From positions 1 through 54,169 of the forward strand of contig NZ_CAIUXT010000171.1 of assembly GCF_903903185.1 (NCBI RefSeq): a DNA stretch of 54,169 nt, read 5' to 3'. Within the stretch, counting starts at the first letter, position 1. Each line of letters starts with the position of its first letter. Shown in pieces: positions 11,514 to 37,085 of the stretch. The DNA comes from an uncultured Rhodoblastus sp. (GTDB taxonomy: Bacteria; Pseudomonadota; Alphaproteobacteria; Rhizobiales; Beijerinckiaceae). A program made the position numbers and the translations under genes. Below the pieces are notes generated by a model. It was not told the origin of the DNA, did not search any database, and worked only from the letters and a program-made list of their open reading frames with translations.

Positions 11514-12251
11514 ATGCGAAAGCTCGTTGTGCTCAGCGGCAGCGGAATTTCCGCCGATTCGGGGCTGGACACCTTCCGGACGTCGGGCGACCGCAGCCTC
11601 TGGGCGCAATATGACGCCGATCAGGTTTGCAATTTCGATTGCTGGGAAGAATATTTCGATCTCGTCCATGAATTCTACTCGCGCCGCCGCGAGCAATTGG
11701 CCGAGGTCGCGCCGAACCCGGCGCATTTTCTCGCGGTCTCCTGGCAAAAACGTTTCGCCGCCGACCTCATCACCCAGAATGTCGATGACCTGTTCGAACG
11801 CGCGGGCGCCCAGGACGTGCTGCATGTCCATGGCCGTCTGACCTCGATGTGCTGTTTCGAATGCGGGGCGCAATGGGACATCGGCTATTCTAAATTCGAC
11901 CCCGCCCGGGACCGCTGCCCGCAATGCCAGGGCGTACACGGGGTCAAGCCCAATGTGGTGTTTTTCCGCGAACCGGCGCCGCTCTATGGCGAAATGTGGC
12001 GTCGTCTCGCCGCGTTGACCCGCGACGACGTGCTCGTGGTGATCGGCACCTCCGGCGCGGTGTTGCCGATCGCGGAAATCGCCCGGCGCTGTCCCGCGAC
12101 TTCGATTCTGTCCAATCTCGAATCCGAACCGGGGCTCAATGAGCAGCCTTTCGACCATGTCCTGCATGGACGCGCCGCCGAAATCGCGCCGCAACTCGAT
12201 GCGCTGGCGACCCGGCTGATGGAGCGCCCGGGGTTGAAGGCAACGATATGA
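11514..12251 (+). CDS. cobB: NAD-dependent protein deacylase, Sir2 family
   Basis: A 245-residue sirtuin that removes acyl groups from lysines using NAD+. NAD-binding GSGISADSGLDTFR, the LITQNVDDL motif, the catalytic His in LHVHGRL, two zinc Cys pairs (CCFEC and CPQC) and VKPNVVFFRE are all seen. The ATG at 11514 follows AAGGAG with good spacing, so the in-frame start at 11454 that overlaps the CYTH-CHAD stop is rejected. It probably shares a transcript with the CYTH-CHAD gene. Confidence 0.95.
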   Translation: MRKLVVLSGSGISADSGLDTFRTSGDRSLWAQYDADQVCNFDCWEEYFDLVHEFYSRRREQLAEVAPNPAHFLAVSWQKRFAADLITQNVDDLFERAGAQDVLHVHGRLTSMCCFECGAQWDIGYSKFDPARDRCPQCQGVHGVKPNVVFFREPAPLYGEMWRRLAALTRDDVLVVIGTSGAVLPIAEIARRCPATSILSNLESEPGLNEQPFDHVLHGRAAEIAPQLDALATRLMERPGLKATI

Positions 12252-29753: not shown

Positions 29754-30195
29754 GCGTGACGCTCCTTAAAGCAAGTTAAACCGGTCCGTTGCAAGCAATG
29801 AACCATTTCATATCGATATCTCTAGGGAGGTCGTCAGCTGCGTCTTCGACGCAAGGCCAAGTCTTCGGCCGAAAGTTCGATCAGGATAAAGTAAACTGCT
29901 CCGGCGGCAAAAACAAGGCCATCTGAAAATTATTTCGGGACCACGCATTTTCCCGTCGAGCGGGATTATATTGCATCAAACGACAAAGTTGCCGCCCGCC
30001 CGTCCAGCCTGGGAGCGGGCGAGCGCGGATAACTCGAATTCACCACGCCGCCGCCTAGGCCCGGCGAGGGACTCTGGAATAGCGGCGACTTCCTTGTTGG
30101 AGAATGCGCCGCGAATGGCGATGTTACCATCGGCCCTTGAAAAGGACCGATGGCGTCCGCTCGGACTGGCGCGGCGCCAGCTGAAGCCGGCGGGC
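29754..30195. other. cspA upstream region
   Basis: No convincing gene. It presumably contains the cspA promoter and leader. Open frames here on either strand lack ribosome sites and family resemblance. Confidence 0.5.
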
Positions 30196-30227
30196 GCCTT
30201 TGCTTCCGACGAGTGGGAAGCAAAGGC
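30196..30227. repeat. Perfect 12-bp hairpin
   Basis: GCCTTTGCTTCC (30196-30207), eight bases, then GGAAGCAAAGGC (30216-30227). There is no T-run on either side. It lies next to repeat copy 2 and downstream of the MCDYSL-type gene; it could slow or end that transcript. Confidence 0.6.
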
Positions 30228-30238
30228 CGTTGGTATGA

Positions 30239-30340
30239 GAGCGTTTTCCAGCGAAGCGGACCCCGGTTCGCGTGCAGAAGCCGCGTAAAGACGATAAACC
30301 AGAGTCCCTTTTCCGTTCAATCGGATCGGAATAGGCTCCA
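30239..30340 (+). repeat. Interspersed repeat, copy 2
   Basis: It starts AGCGTTTTCCAGCGAAGCGG, followed by CCCGGTTCGCGTG, ATAAACCAGAGTC and CAATCGGATCGG. It is clearly the same element as copy 1 (23809). It lies three bases beyond the stop codon of the gene ending at 30344, again at a gene 3' end. Confidence 0.75.
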
Positions 30341-30343
30341 GCG

Positions 30344-30733
30344 TCACTCGGCGGGTTCGAGTTCCGTCGCCGCCTGACGGGCGGTTTCCCTGACCGCAGG
30401 CTTTTCCGCATCGATGAGGCTCACGAGAACGCCCGAGCCCATGCGATGCAGCGGCATTTCGGCGCCATTGGCGAATTTCACGCCGTCATGATGCAGACCG
30501 CTATCGAGACGGGTGAAGACGACGTCTTCGAGCGCCGCGACGCCTAGCGTTTGCTGAAGCTCGATCGGCAGGTTTTCGAGCCTCAGCCGCGTTCCATAGG
30601 AGACGCAGACCGCCGTCGTGCAATCGCCCGGCGCGGCCATGCCGATCGATCCGCTCGGGAAGCGGGTCGTGACATAGATTTCGCCCTCGCGGGCGGGACG
30701 GGACGAATACATTTCCAGTGAGTAATCACACAT
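30344..30733 (-). CDS. Conserved hypothetical protein (MCDYSL type)
   Basis: A 129-residue protein. The start MCDYSLEMYSSRPAREGEIY is of a type I recall from small conserved Hyphomicrobiales proteins. GGAG lies eight bases before the ATG at 30733, so the longer in-frame reading from 30940 is rejected. It has no signal peptide or membrane helix and contains two cysteines in GDCTTAVCVSYG. Function unknown. Confidence 0.72.
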   Translation of the reverse strand: MCDYSLEMYSSRPAREGEIYVTTRFPSGSIGMAAPGDCTTAVCVSYGTRLRLENLPIELQQTLGVAALEDVVFTRLDSGLHHDGVKFANGAEMPLHRMGSGVLVSLIDAEKPAVRETARQAATELEPAE

Positions 30734-31111
30734 GGCATCGCTCCATTGACCAGAGCCAAGCCCCGTCCCGGCGAAACGCGCGCAAGCGGCGCACGGCTGT
30801 CGATTATTGTCAGGCGGCTGGCATGGACGAGGCGCTACAGGCGGCCGCCGGTGATTGGTGCAGAAACCAATCAGCGCGAAGAAAGTTGCATCGCGCCGTC
30901 CAAACGATCGCCTCAAAAACGCCGGCGGCGGCTCAGCCATGCCAAAGGGTTCGAGCCCAGGCTTGGATCACGACCACGAGGCGTGGAGAGCGAACCGAAA
31001 AACTGTATCTTCCGGCGGCGCAGTCCATCCATGGACCGAACTGGCAATGTCGAATAATTGATACGGAATACGCCAAAATCGCAGGTTTTAAAGTTAAAGT
31101 CCGGAAGATCA
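30734..31111. other. Intergenic region before the broken Crp/Fnr gene
   Basis: 378 bp. Several overlapping open frames exist, but none has a ribosome site or recognisable sequence. The right end is AT-rich (31035-31110) and probably held the promoter of the regulator. Confidence 0.5.
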
Positions 31112-31740
31112 ATGATAGGGACGTTTCGCTTGAAACAGGAACCGGCTACGGCTTGGCTTGACGCTTTTCCGCCGCTTGCACGCCTCGAAGATCCGTCACG
31201 TTCGGCGCTTGCTCGCTGTTTGCCGATGGACATTCGCAAAGGCAGATGCCTGTTTGCACCGGGCGAACCGTGCCCCGGTTTTGTGCTGCTTCTGACCGGG
31301 CGCATCCGCGTCGGCTTGACCGCTGAAAATGGCCGCCGGTTGGTGCTTTATCGCGTACTCCCTGGCGAAACCTGCGTTCAGACGACGCTTTGCATGCTCG
31401 GCGACCTAAAATATTCCGCCGAGGGCATGGCGGAGAGCGATCTGCGCCTTGTAATTGTTCCGCCGATTTTGTTTCTTTGTCTTTTGCGCGAGTCAGCGAT
31501 TTTCGCACAATTCGTGTTCGAACGTTTTAGAGCGCGGCTCTCGGAAATGACCCGTTTGATCGCGACGATCGCTTTTTTCGGGTGGACGCCCGGCTTGTCG
31601 CTGCATTAGTGGCCCGCGCCGGGGAGCATGGGGCGGTCACCGCGACGCATCAAAATCTGGCGGAAGACATCGGCGCCGGCCGTGAGGTGGTCAGCCGGCA
31701 GTTGGCCCTGTTTCAGCGTGCCCATCCTCGACGGTTATCC
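31112..31740 (+). pseudogene. Crp/Fnr family regulator, frameshifted
   Basis: The cyclic-nucleotide-binding-like domain reads in one frame (from MIGTFRLKQE through GFVLLLTGRIRVGL and GETCVQTTLCML). The continuation, with DARLVAALV and the helix-turn-helix THQNLAEDIGAGREVVSRQL, lies in another. The switch falls in the T6 tract at 31573-31578, where one more base would restore DARL after FFR. The C-terminal wing after REVVSRQLALFQR is also unrecognisable, so a second lesion is likely. The original would have been an FNR-like sensor-regulator, but I see no Fe-S Cys cluster at the N-terminus. Confidence 0.75.
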
Positions 31741-31802
31741 GGCCACGATCCAGAAAGATCAGTGCGGCAATACACCTGTTCGGAGCAAACGCGCCCGAGG
31801 TC

Positions 31803-31970
31803 TTGCGCGCCGCGTCCGGCGACGTGCGGATGAAATTGAAAAGTGAAGCCGTCGTCACAAACGGCAACGTCAACAGCTTTCACGTCGCCCGGCGATGTGT
31901 GCAGCAAATGGCCGGGAACATGCAGGCGCTGGATCCGTGGCGAATTGCGAAAAGGGCTGGGGGGCGAGGT
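31803..31970 (+). pseudogene. Possible BON-domain remnant
   Basis: About 40 codons (VRMKLKSEAVVTNGNVNSFH and on to ARRCVQQMAGN) recall the strand-helix pattern of a BON domain, which usually binds phospholipid or other hydrophobic ligands. There is no good start codon or downstream continuation. The resemblance is weak. The rest of 31741-32081 holds nothing else I can support. Confidence 0.25.
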
Positions 31971-32081
31971 GGCAAAAGGCTTTCGCTGCCCTCGGCGTCG
32001 GAACCCTCGCCGCCAAAGCCATGCCTGATTTGGACGCGAGCCGGCGGCTAGGCGTTTCCCTAAAACTGCGCCCCGTCATTC

Positions 32082-32397
32082 GCGTCGACCGCCGACGCGG
32101 GGATGAACCAGCTATTGCGACTCCGGCGCACGGCCGGCGCTCGGCTGCCACGCCCACGCGGGCACGCGCGTATGGACCCTGCCTGATCCCCGCATGGGCG
32201 CGGCGTGGCTCCCCCACCCATGCGGGGATGGACCCGCTTGTGACGTCGCGGGCTTGCGCTGGCCTTGGCTCCCCGTCCACGCGAGCGGGGATGGTCCCCA
32301 ACTTCATGGCGAATGGTATGCGATAGATTAGGCTCCGCCGCCCACGCGGGGATGGCCCCCCGGATTCGCGGGCTTGCCGTTAGCTTCGTTGGCTCGC
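32082..32397 (+). CRISPR. Degenerate CRISPR-like array, left part (type I-E-like repeat units)
   Basis: Units start at about 32082, 32143, 32207, 32267, 32331 and 32391, with spacings of 60 to 64 bp. Better units read GGCTCCCC, then CCCA(C/T)GCGGGGATGG, then CCC, about 29 bases, close in form to type I-E repeats. The stretches between are 27 to 32 bases and mostly differ. The last unit is cut after GGCTCGC by an inserted element. Repeats have diverged from each other, and no cas gene is in the window, so this would be a dead array. Some spacers share short words, so a diverged tandem repeat is the alternative. Confidence 0.55.
32388..32397 (+). repeat. Target-site duplication, left copy
   Basis: GTTGGCTCGC immediately left of the element end. 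It matches GTTGGCTCCC at 35731-35740 in nine of ten positions. Confidence 0.65.
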
Positions 32398-32446
32398 CAG
32401 GCTGCTCAACGCTCCTTGCTGAAGGTCATTACAAGCACTGATTTGA

Positions 32447-32624
32447 AGGACTTCCGCATGATGAATCGCACGGTCCACGAGTCGTTCCAAACTCAGGTCG
32501 TTGTGTTTTACGATCCCGTGTCTGCAGCGCACCGCTCCGCGCTGCGCCGCGCACAGGATGACGCTGCGTGCGCCCCAATTTCGGGCGTGCGGGCCACAGC
32601 GGTGGAATCGCCAGGCGCTAAGAC
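32447..32624. other. Non-coding stretch between the IS remnant and the RuBisCO-like gene
   Basis: No gene, terminator or repeat that I can support lies in these 178 bp, although this is where transcription from the RuBisCO-like operon should end. Confidence 0.4.
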
Positions 32625-33926
32625 TCAGGCTCGCTGGCCGAAGGCCTCCAGCGCGGCGTGAAGCTCAGCATGTGTTTGCGCATATTTCGCAAGTGGGATT
32701 CCCTGCGAGATGGCATCCCATGCCTGCCGTATGCTTGCGGCGCCGCCACGCGGTCCCATCGGATGGCCGAAAACGCCGCGTCCCGGTACGAAGCCGAAGT
32801 CCACGCTGCCAACCTTCCGGTAGACGCCATCCAGGGTGCCTGCCCAATCGCTGCCACCGGGCACTGGCAGGCAGGGCTTTATATGCCCCATGGGCTCCAG
32901 GCATGCGCGGACGCATTCCAGAACCTCGTGCTCGGGCGTCATCATGCGGCTGCCGAAGCCCGGCATGATGACCGCGTCGAACCCTGCGAGCCGCTGCAGC
33001 CGGGTCAGCACCCGGGAATGAATGCCGTAGCCCGAAAGCCGGCTGAATGCGGCAATGAATGGGAAATGCGCGACAAGTGGCGCCGTGGCGTGCTTGCGCA
33101 GCATCCGAACGCCGCTCAATCCAACCGGCATCGCGTTGATGAGGAGCGCATTTGCGCCTTTCGCGACCGCCAGATCGTGGAGTTCCGCAAGCCGGTCGAC
33201 CTCATCGGTAATATTGGCCAGATAGATCTTCGGAACGCCCGTCTCACGCTCCGCCCGGAGGCGCGCTTCGCCCAACGCCGCAGCGCGCTCGCTGAGCGGG
33301 CACCAGCCGATGTCGGCCAGCATCTCATCGTCCTTGGCGATGTCGAGGCCGCCAAGCCAGCTTTGAAACCCGAGCTCCGCGAAAGGCTCCGCGGGAAGCC
33401 CGATGTTCGGCTTGATGACACCGAAAAAGATGGGGCGGCCGAAGGCTTGCAGGCGCTCGCGCAAACCGGCGATGCCGAACCTCGGCCCCTCGAATCCCGC
33501 GAGGTAGGAGTCCGGAAAGCGGATGTCCTGCAGCCTGATCAGGGGAATGCCGGGCGAGAAGAAAACGCCTTCGCCGCAGACAGCGGACAGCAGATTGGGA
33601 ATGCGCGGCCCGAAATTGCCATGCGGGTGGGCGATGGCAGCACGCACCGAATATACTGGACCCAGGACCGCGCACTCGACCGGGATGCTGAACCCGGAAG
33701 GGCGCGGCTCGGATTCCAGGTCGAGCACCTTCGCCGCGAAGCGCGGGCGGAAGTCTTCGTCCACGCCGACGCGACGCCATTGCGCCGTGGATTGCTCGCT
33801 GCAAAGATGTGCGGCAGCTTCGCGCGGATCGCCAGCGCATTCGAAGGTGAAATCAAGCTCGATGTAGTCTTCGGGATTGAGATCACCCCGCTTGGCGTAG
33901 AATCCCGCAATATCGCCCGGCGTCAT
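32625..33926 (-). CDS. RuBisCO-like protein (form IV)
   Basis: A 433-residue member of the RuBisCO large-chain superfamily. The N-terminal alpha/beta domain begins [10 protein letters not shown]. In the barrel, [11 protein letters not shown] keeps the Lys equivalent to Lys175 but replaces the second (KPK becomes KPN). [12 protein letters not shown] keeps the Lys-Asp-Glu metal and carbamate set. Loop 6 reads [10 protein letters not shown] and lacks the CO2-gating Lys. That combination points to an enolase, isomerase or transcarboxylase-like RLP rather than a carboxylase. GGAGAAG of its ribosome site lies within the end of yjbQ, and the genes are three bases apart. Confidence 0.9.
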
Positions 33927-33929
33927 GGA

Positions 33930-34358
33930 TCAAGCTTCTCCCATGATTTGAAGCTCAAGCCCGCGACGTTCCCTCGGGCCATCAAGTTCAATAAAAAGGA
34001 TGGAATGCCAGCTGCCGAGGACCACCTCGCCGTCCGCAACCGGAATGCTCTCGGATGAATTCATGAGAAGCCCGAGGATGTGGGAGTGAGCGTTGTCGCG
34101 TCCGTCGACGGCGACAAGATTGTGCAGCCAGTCTCCATCGCAAGGCACAAATCGCTTCAGCCATGTCACCATGTCCTTTTGCAGTTGCGGCTCGCGCTCA
34201 TTCACATTGACACGCGCCGTCGTATGAGGCGACGTCACGGTTAGAAGACCCTCGCGAATTCCGGTCGTTCTCAGCCAATCGCGGACCCGTCCTGTAATAT
34301 CGAGGATCTGGATCGGTTCGACGGTCTCGAACTCGATCCGCGTTCTTAGGATCTTCAT
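33930..34358 (-). CDS. YjbQ/UPF0047 family protein
   Basis: A 142-residue protein of the UPF0047 family, some members of which have been reported to form thiamine phosphate in vitro. Family marks are TSPHTTARVNVNE, the acidic patch in DGDWLHNLVAVDGRDNAHSH (metal-binding His and Asp) and LGSWHSILFIELDGPRERR. The start at 34358 (MKILRTRIEF) fits the family; an in-frame ATG at 34418 would add 20 unlikely residues. It is translationally close to the RuBisCO-like gene and is its only partner in the element. Confidence 0.88.
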   Translation of the reverse strand: MKILRTRIEFETVEPIQILDITGRVRDWLRTTGIREGLLTVTSPHTTARVNVNEREPQLQKDMVTWLKRFVPCDGDWLHNLVAVDGRDNAHSHILGLLMNSSESIPVADGEVVLGSWHSILFIELDGPRERRGLELQIMGEA

Positions 34359-34462
34359 GGGGTTACCTGGGGGGCGGGAAGCAAGCCGAACGTTATCGCA
34401 CATGCTATTGATAGGCAAACCCTAAAGGCTTCGCGCAGGTTTGATCAGTGGCAAGCCCGCAT

Positions 34463-35594
34463 TCAACGCTCTCTGCTGAAGGTCATTGCAAGCATTGATT
34501 TGAGTCCGCCGAAAGCGGCGGCGAGGCGGTCCTGTGGGGTCGTGTCGGTTTGATGGCACTTCAGGATATTGTAAGCGAAGCTGTGCAACCTGGCGAAAAA
34601 GCCAGGATTCTTTCGGATTCTCGATGCATCTTCACGGAACGTGACATCTCGCGAGTGATGCGAGGTATTTTCTATTCGCCAGTGTCGGCGGACTGCGGCT
34701 GCGGCGGTTTTGGCCGTGATGGGGCGGCTGGACAGATAGAACGAGATTTCGCTGCTGTGCTCCCAGGGTCCTGTGGCTGGCAGGAAACGGAGGACCGTGC
34801 GCTCGACCCGGATGATTGCCGCCACATGCGGCTCCAATTCCGTTCCAGCGACCGCCGGCTTGGCTTCGAACACGGCGACTGCTCGGGTTTCGTGGCGGTT
34901 GCGCCGGTTCTTGTCGACGCGCTTCTCGCTGGACAGGGGCGTGGCTGTCGCGCAGGCGGCTTCGACGTCGTGGCGCAGGATCGGTTGATTGTCCTTGAGC
35001 TGAACAATCTGATGGGCGTTGGCGGCGGCAGCGGCTTCAAAGGTTCTTTTGCGCGTGCTTGGCGTCGCACGTGAAAATGCGTCCGGCAACGTCGAGTTCG
35101 GCCAGCAATTTCTGCACGGCCGGGATTTCATTAGATTTCTCATCGATCTCGATGTGCGCGAGCACCAGCGCCGTATCGACCGCGAACGCGCTGAGCACCT
35201 GTTTGGCCTTGGCGTCGTTGAAATTGTCGAAGCTGCCTTTCAGCGTCTTGCCGTCGAACGCGAAGACGCAAGTCTCGGCGCCACCGGGCGCGACGCTGAG
35301 GTTGGCGCTGTGTTCGCGAAAAGCCTTTTCCAGATTCGTGGCGTCGAGGCCCTGCAAAATGTGGCGGATGGCCGTATGCGCCGGAGCCCTCTTCCACTTG
35401 ATCTTGAAGACTTTGTTCAGCGCCTGCCGATACGCCGTGAAGTACGTCTGGATGCCGCGATACGAACTGGCGCCGGTGACGATGGCAAAAATAGAAAACA
35501 GCAACACGTGCGGCAACTGGTAAAGTTTGCCCTCCGCGCGGCGCGGGTCGGGGATTGTGGCGAGTATCGAGAGCAACGGTCCCGAAGACTTCAT
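34463..35594 (-). pseudogene. ISAs1 family transposase, frameshifted
   Basis: The N-terminal part (MKSSGPLLSILATIPDPRR to TCDAKHAQK) contains the first two catalytic Asp, in FDGKTLKGSF and FTCDAKH. It then hits a stop at about 35037. The rest continues in the next frame from TFEAAAAANAHQIVQLKDNQ to HWRIENTSHHSRDVTFREDA, which holds the catalytic Glu. One missing base at about 35045 explains the break. The ATG at 35594 has CGGAGG upstream. All three acidic residues are kept, so the loss looks recent, or the base could be a sequencing error. Confidence 0.85.
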
Positions 35595-35730
35595 GGCGAC
35601 CTCCGATTGACTCGGTCGCCTCATAGGCATTCAGACTTTTCCGCTCGGCGGAATCGCCCGGCGCGCCCTACGCATCAAACCTTCAAAGCTGTTGTATCTG
35701 GGACTCAGTAAAGAGGGTTGAACAGCCCTG

Positions 35731-35823
35731 GTTGGCTCCCCTGCCCACGCCGGGATGGACCCGCCGCAAGCCCGATGCAGCGCAGGACGAAGACGAATCT
35801 CCCGACCACGAGCGGATAGATCC
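35731..35823 (+). CRISPR. Degenerate CRISPR-like array, right part
   Basis: A 29-base unit at 35734-35762 begins GGCTCCCC and ends CCGGGATGGACCC. A weaker unit (CTCCCGACCACGAGCGGATAG) starts about 35795, 61 bp later. If the inserted element and one duplication copy are removed, the unit at 35734 becomes the next repeat of the left part at the same 60-bp step, so the two parts were one array. The first ten bases (35731-35740) are also the right target duplication. Confidence 0.5.
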
Positions 35824-36007
35824 CGGCCCCAACCTGCTCGACACTGACCTTACCCCCGAACAAGCTGGACTTCAAGTCCAAGCCAAGCATTGTTTGGCTC
35901 CGGGCGGCGCCGATCGAGGCCACGTTTTCTCCTACCCTGCCGGCTTTCGAGCCCTCGCGGGGTCGCGCTGGTGACGGCCGATGCTGTCGCAAGCAAAGGC
36001 GAGGAAA
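35824..36007. other. Unassigned stretch before the DUF3489 gene
   Basis: No further 60-bp units and no supported gene. It presumably holds the original promoter of the DUF3489 gene. Confidence 0.4.
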
Positions 36008-36486
36008 ATGCCAAAACTTACCGACACTCAAGTCATTATCTTGTCAAAGGCCGCGGCACGGGACGACGGCGCGGCGACTATTCCAGCAAATTTGAACAAG
36101 GCCAGCGCCGCCTTGGTCGGATCGAGCCTTGTGGCGCGCAACCTGATGCAGGTGGTTGTTGCTGAGCGGGGAATGCCCGTCTGGCGCGAGGTTGAAGAGG
36201 GCGAGCGCATCAGCCTTGTCATTACAACCGCTGGCCGCGAGGCGATCGGCGTCGTCGACGACGGCGGCCCGTTTGAGGCGCAGCCGACGGAAGCGGTAAG
36301 CGATCCTGCGAAAGACGAATTGCCGCGCGCTGACGACGAACAGAAACCACCTGTGTTGCCGCCGCGCGCCGGTTCGAAACAAGCCCTGGTCATCGACATG
36401 CTGTCGCAAAACGCGGGCTCCACGCTTGACGCTCTGGTCAATGCGACCGGTTGGCTGCCGAATACGCCCCGGGCCGCGCTCACTGG
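36008..36486 (+). pseudogene. DUF3489 protein, 3' end deleted
   Basis: GAGGAAA precedes an ATG whose product begins MPKLTDTQVIILSKAAARDD. The DUF3489 helix-turn-helix-like region is recognisable at PRAGSKQALVIDMLSQNAG and LDALVNATGWLPNTPRAAL, but it breaks off at about residue 160 where the family continues. The DNA then matches the inside of a serine recombinase in another frame. These genes are often neighbours of recombinase genes in this order, so one deletion could have joined them. Confidence 0.75.
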
Positions 36487-37085
36487 CTTATCGGTACTAT
36501 GTCTCACACCCAGTGCTGCAAAACCGCAAGGCGGAAGCGGGAACCATAAAACGTGTCAGCGCGCCCGACGTCGAGGGCCTCGTTTGCCAAGTCATCCGTC
36601 GTGTTCTCCAACCCAATGCTGAAACCACGGATAGGGACTTGGCGGCCGAAGAAATCGAACGCGTCATTGTTTTCGCCGATCATATTGCGGTCGCTATGAA
36701 AAGGCCGGATGCCAATGGAGGAACGGAACGGAACCTCCCGTTTGTCCCAACGGTCCCCTTGCTCAAAGGCGTCGCTTATGTTTCCGGCCAGCCGCCCAAG
36801 CTCGACGCTCGAGACCGCAACGCCTTGTTGCAGGCGATCGCCCGCGCCCGCAAGTGGATGGATGAAATTATCGGCGGCAAGGTCGCGTCCTTCGAAGCAA
36901 TCGCCGAGGTCGAGAAGATCGGCGTGCGTTACGTCTGACGGCTTGCTCCGCTGGCCTTCCTCTCGCCGAAAATCATTCAGGCTCTCGCCAACGAAGTGAC
37001 GTCCACCGGCCTGAGCGTTTCCAGGCTCCCCCTGGCGCTGCCTCATTCGTGGGCGGAGCAGGAAAAAATGTTCGGCCTGCACTGA
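36487..37085 (+). pseudogene. Serine recombinase, C-terminal fragment with in-frame stop
   Basis: The fragment starts in the zinc-ribbon region (YRYYVSHPVLQNRKAEAGTI) and runs through the C-terminal part with SAPDVEGLV and LLQAIARARKWMDEI. TGA at 36936-36938 interrupts RYV-RLAPLAFLSPKII; the natural codon was probably CGA. After it the frame continues to WAEQEKMFGLH and a proper stop at 37083. The resolvase catalytic domain is missing, so it is inactive. Confidence 0.8.

Follow-up and report, generated by a model that had tools for sequence, protein, structure and literature searches.

We analysed a 54,169-nt contig (hereafter the window; contig C171 in our numbering, NZ_CAIUXT010000171.1 of assembly GCF_903903185.1; nt, nucleotides) of an uncultured Rhodoblastus sp., the genome of which is a 4.96-Mb draft in 257 contigs that is 91% complete, i.e., ~9% of it may be missing. 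Between 31722 and 35823, the window holds what appear to be the remains of a type I-E CRISPR-Cas locus (CRISPR, clustered regularly interspaced short palindromic repeats): seven decayed 29-nt repeats in all, five at 32082-32359 and two at 35734-35823; a mobile element of the ISAs1 type that lies between the two groups; and, left of the first repeat, a mosaic of cas gene fragments. The array and the insertion are laid out as follows:

32082-32110, + strand: repeat unit 1, a cas6e/repeat chimera, the repeat part from ~32090; 22/29 matches to the consensus
32143-32179, + strand: repeat unit 2, with ~8 extra nt
32186-32203, - strand: inverted partial repeat within interval 2, its 18 nt being 89% complementary to part of unit 3
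32207-32235, + strand: repeat unit 3; 27/29 matches to the consensus
32267-32298, + strand: repeat unit 4, with 3 extra nt
32331-32359, + strand: repeat unit 5; 27/29 matches to the consensus
32388-32397: left target copy, GTTGGCTCGC, containing the start of the split unit
32391-32398: stub of the split (sixth) unit, 8 nt, GGCTCGCC, left of the element
32398-35730: ISAs1-type element, 3,333 nt, splitting the array
35731-35740: right target copy, GTTGGCTCCC
35734-35762, + strand: repeat unit 6; 27/29 matches to the consensus
35795-35823, + strand: repeat unit 7, decayed; 21/29 matches to the consensus

The repeat consensus, GGCTCCCCCGCCCACGCGGGGATGGACCC, was inferred by eye from the decayed copies. 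Start-to-start steps are 61, 64, 60 and 64 nt, then 60 nt to the stub of the split unit, and then 61 nt; the intervals are 32, 27, 31, 32, 31 and 32 nt long, i.e., the array has a period of ~61 nt with intervals of ~32 nt. A preliminary description of this stretch counted about six units left of the element and two right of it; the two on the right stand, whereas the left side has five units plus the 8-nt stub. Its placement of the first unit at 32082 is correct for the 3' half of that repeat, whereas the 5' half (32082 to ~32090) is cas6e-like, the cas6e piece entering the repeat mid-way. As it proposed, removal of 32398-35730 and one target copy gives one array of seven units at a near-constant step.

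A gapped scan with the consensus was run on this joined stretch (958 nt, element and one target copy removed), and showed seven peaks with scores of 37, 40, 52, 41, 52, 52 and 34 and end-to-end steps of 69, 56, 63, 61, 60 and 61 nt. The best score per shuffle in 100 dinucleotide shuffles of the joined stretch had a mean of 27.3 and a highest value of 35.0; six of the seven units score above this highest value, and the seventh, at 34, falls short of it. Before gaps are allowed, the decay of the repeats that had been described earlier is evident, with 19 to 27 of 29 positions matching the consensus: the three best units have 27/29 each and the remaining units 19-22/29, compared to at most 19/29 on either strand outside the array in the window. 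Because the consensus was derived from the same units, the comparison of the array to shuffles is, taken alone, partly circular, and the relatives serve as the independent test. A multi-copy tandem occurrence of the unit elsewhere in the genome, intervals included, which the preliminary description had regarded as fatal to its reading, was not found: the 17-nt core of the repeat, with two or fewer mismatches, has four matches in the own genome, all within this array. Similarity between intervals is at chance level in 12 of the 15 pairs, and the remaining three pairs share words, 9, 10 and 12 nt long, around CGGGCTTGC. This word occurs, in either orientation, in three of the six intervals (32249-32257, 32369-32377 and 35766-35774), and was set aside because it is over-represented across the window, with eight copies (three in intervals) versus 1.4 expected. 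An Rfam scan of 31500-36500 gave one sub-threshold match (E, expectation value, 0.16), inside the RuBisCO-like gene of the element, which was judged to be due to chance.

Relatives were taken from a Cas6e search in 199 genomes of the family, 16 of which had a match, and the loci were fetched from these. In the family member G004, an intact array beside cas6e and type I-E cas genes has a repeat that agrees with our consensus at every position (29/29). Because this identical 29-nt repeat stands beside I-E cas genes, the relic array is of type I-E, as described earlier, and G004 provides the intact array with the same repeat that was to be sought in relatives. Five tested proteins of G004 (Cas3, by core and HD models, Cse1, Cas7, Cas6e and Cas1e) are over the NCBIfam cut-off, and its fetched stretch has 39 places that match the repeat at at least 25/29. 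The two loci have the consensus and the 61-nt period in common; G004 has intact genes and 39 repeat places, whereas the window has seven decayed repeats and cas scraps. The consensus also matches the repeat of G188 at 28/29 and that of the congener G171 at 27/29, contrary to the possibility, raised earlier as adverse, that no relative would have a related I-E repeat. Two further genomes of the genus, G143 and G071, have long arrays of another I-E-like repeat (25/29 to the consensus). Judging from alignments that agree with those of named records in identity, length and, for G171, contig coordinates, G171, G143 and G071 would be Rhodoblastus sphagnicola DSM 16996, R. acidophilus DSM 142 and R. 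acidophilus MO, respectively.

The G171 locus is the best match among the proteins tried for the cas1 fragment and both cas3 fragments of the window; it differs in that its operon is full-length, in the order cas3-cse1-cse2-cas7-cas5-cas6e-cas1-cas2, yet is followed by only ~two repeats. Its Cse1, Cas7, Cas5, Cas2e and Cas1e are over the cut-off of the I-E NCBIfam models; Cas3 is over the cut-off for the Cas3 core and HD models and not for the whole-length model; Cas6e is over the Pfam cut-off and below that of NCBIfam; and cse2, without a model match, was named from position alone. These ~two repeats lie at 11804-11893 of the fetched G171 locus (L021), the second being incomplete, and this arrangement is possibly an early step of array loss.

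According to the preliminary description, the window lacks cas genes. This was not borne out, as the sequence that borders the array on its left contains one cas1, two cas3 and one cas6e fragment. We searched the window by tblastn with 609 open frames from nine relative loci, and then with 14 Cas proteins (eight from G171 and six from G004). The stretch 31722-32092, directly left of the array, is tiled by four cas fragments in shuffled order and orientation (aa, amino acids):

31722-31762, - strand: cas1 fragment (residues 34-21 of G171 Cas1); 13/14 aa, 83% of 41 nt
31764-31832, + strand: cas3 middle fragment (residues 327-349 of G171 Cas3); 74% over 23 aa, 71% over 91 nt
31821-31976, - strand: cas3 C-terminal fragment, inverted (residues 840-789 of G171 Cas3); 48% over 52 aa, E 1.6e-9 in the window
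31976-32092, + strand: cas6e fragment (residues 88-125 of G004 Cas6e); 58% over 38 aa, E 2e-8, running into the first repeat

A DNA comparison of the mosaic gave the same fragment edges as tblastn. The cas6e fragment also matches G171 (46% over 68 aa, E 4e-10), in an alignment that extends past the junction into the array. The 14 Cas proteins have eight matches at E ≤ 0.01 across the window, seven of which are at 31721-32249; the remaining one, of 30% identity, lies elsewhere. The bit scores are 30.8 for cas1, 35.0 for the cas3 middle, 52.8 for the cas3 C-terminal and 51.2 for the cas6e fragment, each higher than any of 300 shuffles of the respective protein (maxima of 25.8 for Cas1, 29.6 for Cas3 and 26.9 for Cas6e). 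In 4,200 shuffles of the 14 proteins the top score was 31.2 bits, reached by two, and the cas3 middle fragment is above all of them. In the own genome, the sole matches of G171 Cas3 (E ≤ 0.1) are the two cas3 fragments, with E of 2.1e-8 and 0.02, and the sole match of G171 Cas1 (E ≤ 1) overlaps the cas1 fragment (E 0.04). No pieces of cse1, cse2, cas7, cas5 or cas2 were found in the window at the limits used, with cse2 and cas2 queries from G171 only. A cas1-like match right of the array (E 0.02) was rejected as weak and containing a stop.

There are no Cse1, Cas6e or Cas1 family matches in the own genome (91% complete) at E ≤ 0.001; Cas1 was found in three of the 11 genus genomes, and the own genome is not among them. 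Thus, the gene set cas3, cse1, cas6e and cas1 was not found in this assembly, where G171 Cas3 and Cas1 match only the fragments. There is also no leader before the first repeat, to which cas6e-like sequence is joined directly. The overlaps at the mosaic junctions appear to be a few bases long, an exact measure being precluded by the 64-83% identity of the reference pieces. At its left edge, the mosaic borders on a copy of a host gene:

31025-31722, + strand: truncated, frame-shifted crp/fnr-type regulator duplicate with its upstream region; cNMP-binding domain at E 7e-10; ends abruptly at the cas1 fragment

This copy is 91% identical, over 699 columns, to its counterpart in the own genome (G000:C154), which continues past the break, with downstream sequence that is common to three congeners. 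Farther to the left, 30125-30344 is a dispersed repeat of ~110 + 105 nt that recurs many times in the own genome, at 78-93% identity, and is present in congeners too. The right flank of the locus (35981-36938), where a DUF3489 gene piece lies beside an apparent C-terminal part of a site-specific recombinase (recognised by eye, with no Pfam match), looks like more broken mobile DNA.

The element that splits the array carries two passenger genes:

32398-32446: lone insertion sequence (IS) end, within the element
32625-33926, - strand: RuBisCO-like gene (Pfam, E 2e-51)
33930-34418, - strand: UPF0047/YjbQ gene (Pfam, E 1e-35)
34463-35630, - strand: transposase in two frames (DDE_Tnp_1_assoc, E 3e-19; DDE_Tnp_1, E 6e-8)

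Elements of the ISAs1 family have a transposase with DDE_Tnp_1_assoc and DDE_Tnp_1 domains, inverted ends and a target copy of 8-10 bp. The element resembles them in its transposase domains, which we take to be linked to ISAs1, in its inverted ends and in its target duplication of 10 bp (the two copies are 9/10 alike). It differs in carrying the RuBisCO-like and UPF0047 genes. A 41-nt sequence near its left tip (32406-32446) recurs at 34463-34503, 90% alike; therefore, the two passenger genes are flanked on one side by a lone IS end and on the other by an IS copy with the two-frame transposase. The DNA of the passenger stretch is 95% identical to G171, 89% to G143 and 87% to G071. This pair of genes is likely to have moved recently within the genus, because the crp regions of G171, G143 and G100 are only 68-71% identical to the window. 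In R. acidophilus DSM 142, broken IS remains follow the RuBisCO-like/UPF0047 pair. The best 80 of 227 RuBisCO-like relatives are mostly from purple and green phototrophs and Gemmatimonadetes.

Taken together, we consider, with a probability of about 0.9, that this is a dead type I-E CRISPR-Cas locus: rearrangement truncated and scrambled it, and the element split it. The ancestor would have had the usual order cas3-cse1-cse2-cas7-cas5-cas6e-cas1-cas2-leader-array, as in G171, and the fragments probably descend from the operon of this very array. DNA breakage and repair would have cost the locus its leader, the adjacent end of the array and almost the whole operon. What was left would be small pieces of cas1, cas3 and cas6e, connected directly to one another in a changed order and orientation, with the truncated crp/fnr duplicate at the left. 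The repeats would then have drifted without adaptation or interference genes, and the ISAs1-type element with its two passenger genes would have inserted at the start of one repeat; this order of events is the one that we infer. The source of the mosaic may be a copying or joining repair event, i.e., template switching; a single event of this kind would explain both the alternating orientation and the copied crp piece, whereas successive inversions and deletions would take many steps. A bolder version, which we regard as tentative and rather unlikely, is a single catastrophic repair event with template switching among the cas operon, the array and the copied host crp gene, which would have turned a locus of ~8 kb into a 0.4-kb mosaic of fragments in alternating orientation. 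This would be shattering and reassembly in a bacterial form, with the locus's own Cas3 as a possible trigger.

Several points weigh against this interpretation of the locus. The cas fragments are short, 14 to 52 aa, and the cas1 fragment, at 30.8 bits, is outscored by shuffles of two other proteins (31.2 bits; 2/4,200). The cas1 and cas3-middle pieces are weak alone, and their assignment would rest partly on their position beside two strong pieces. An NCBIfam scan of three fragments, with the cas1 piece left out as too short, gave none at E ≤ 1; the three parent G171 proteins were matched in the same scan. Parts of the mosaic stretch have DNA matches in 25 of 397 genomes at E ≤ 0.001, the own genome and G171 included; the matches listed, own stretch aside, are all of 22-57 nt. 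Among nine such matching loci that were examined, only that of G171 encodes a Cas protein (E ≤ 1e-5). A match in G101 (34 nt, 88%) across the cas6e/repeat junction was dismissed as chance, its locus having a repeat match of at most 18/29 and a Cas match no better than E 0.05. The mosaic junctions are known from the assembly alone. A Ku gene was not found in the own genome, and Ku-type end joining is therefore unsupported as the repair process. Finally, no convincing protospacer was found when the left part of the array was compared to phages and plasmids, and exact words of intervals 3-6 to viral contigs. Phages gave one match, with E of 0.08. Plasmids gave 66 records, 57 of them from Streptomyces; the 15 listed span repeats and intervals at 67-75% identity, and the Streptomyces plasmids may have been matched through arrays of their own. 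The exact words of intervals 3-6 are absent from the viral contigs; the spacers are decayed.

Other explanations were weighed against the same observations. The idea that the repeats are of a dispersed or tandem kind (REP-like or coding) rather than a CRISPR array deserves next to no credence: the inverted partial copy in interval 2 and the occurrences of CGGGCTTGC in either orientation would suit it, but it is refuted by G004, where the identical repeat forms a true array beside cas genes, as well as by the absence of the core elsewhere in the genome and the unrelatedness of the other interval pairs. It is extremely improbable that what remains of the array still yields transcripts, and that a cas set located elsewhere processes them: although three units keep 27/29 bases, the assembly has no Cas6e, Cse1 or Cas1 family match, and the fusion of the first repeat to cas6e-like sequence means that no leader is left.

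Two further explanations accept the array and concern the origin of the mosaic. The array relic could be real and the cas/crp mosaic an assembly artefact of misjoined pieces of a decayed operon, as might be suspected of fragments of 41-156 nt in a draft of this kind, and no other genome with the mosaic was found in the DNA searches, for which 40 or fewer first-look candidates per genome were scored in the genus and two in the family. However, the assembly has no other part of cas3 or cas1 that could be the visible parent of misjoined pieces, and the 9% divergence of the crp piece from its counterpart is probably too much for a read-level chimaera, which makes an artefact very unlikely. In the case of self-targeting, an acquired host spacer would have led the CRISPR system to cut the chromosome, so that cells without the operon were selected. 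Such self-targeting is known to cause the loss of cas genes and large deletions, and a duplicated host gene piece does adjoin the relic. It seems quite improbable here, as the stretch with intervals 1-5, with 40 of 70 first-look candidates scored, has no match in the own genome beyond the crp copy, and as the usual outcome would be deletion rather than small inverted fragments.

The locus is thus a well-known kind of relic that is unusually readable, with the cas mosaic as its unusual part; novelty is low because decayed CRISPR loci are common. It is like the degenerate or orphan CRISPR arrays of many bacteria in having decayed repeats without working cas genes in the genome, and unlike them in that a shuffled mosaic of cas remains still adjoins the array. 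In a literature search, "Rhodoblastus" together with "CRISPR" was met in three papers, in each of which the genus name occurs once. A relic array that profile searches call "orphan" may retain cas remains, which the proteins of near relatives reveal. The mosaic, with its small inverted pieces of cas genes next to a duplicate of a host gene, is a testable record of a repair process. No immunity would be expected from the locus, which would instead be a record, and a clear case, of the loss of an adaptive immune locus, in which the repeats decay, the cas genes turn into scraps and a mobile element uses the site.

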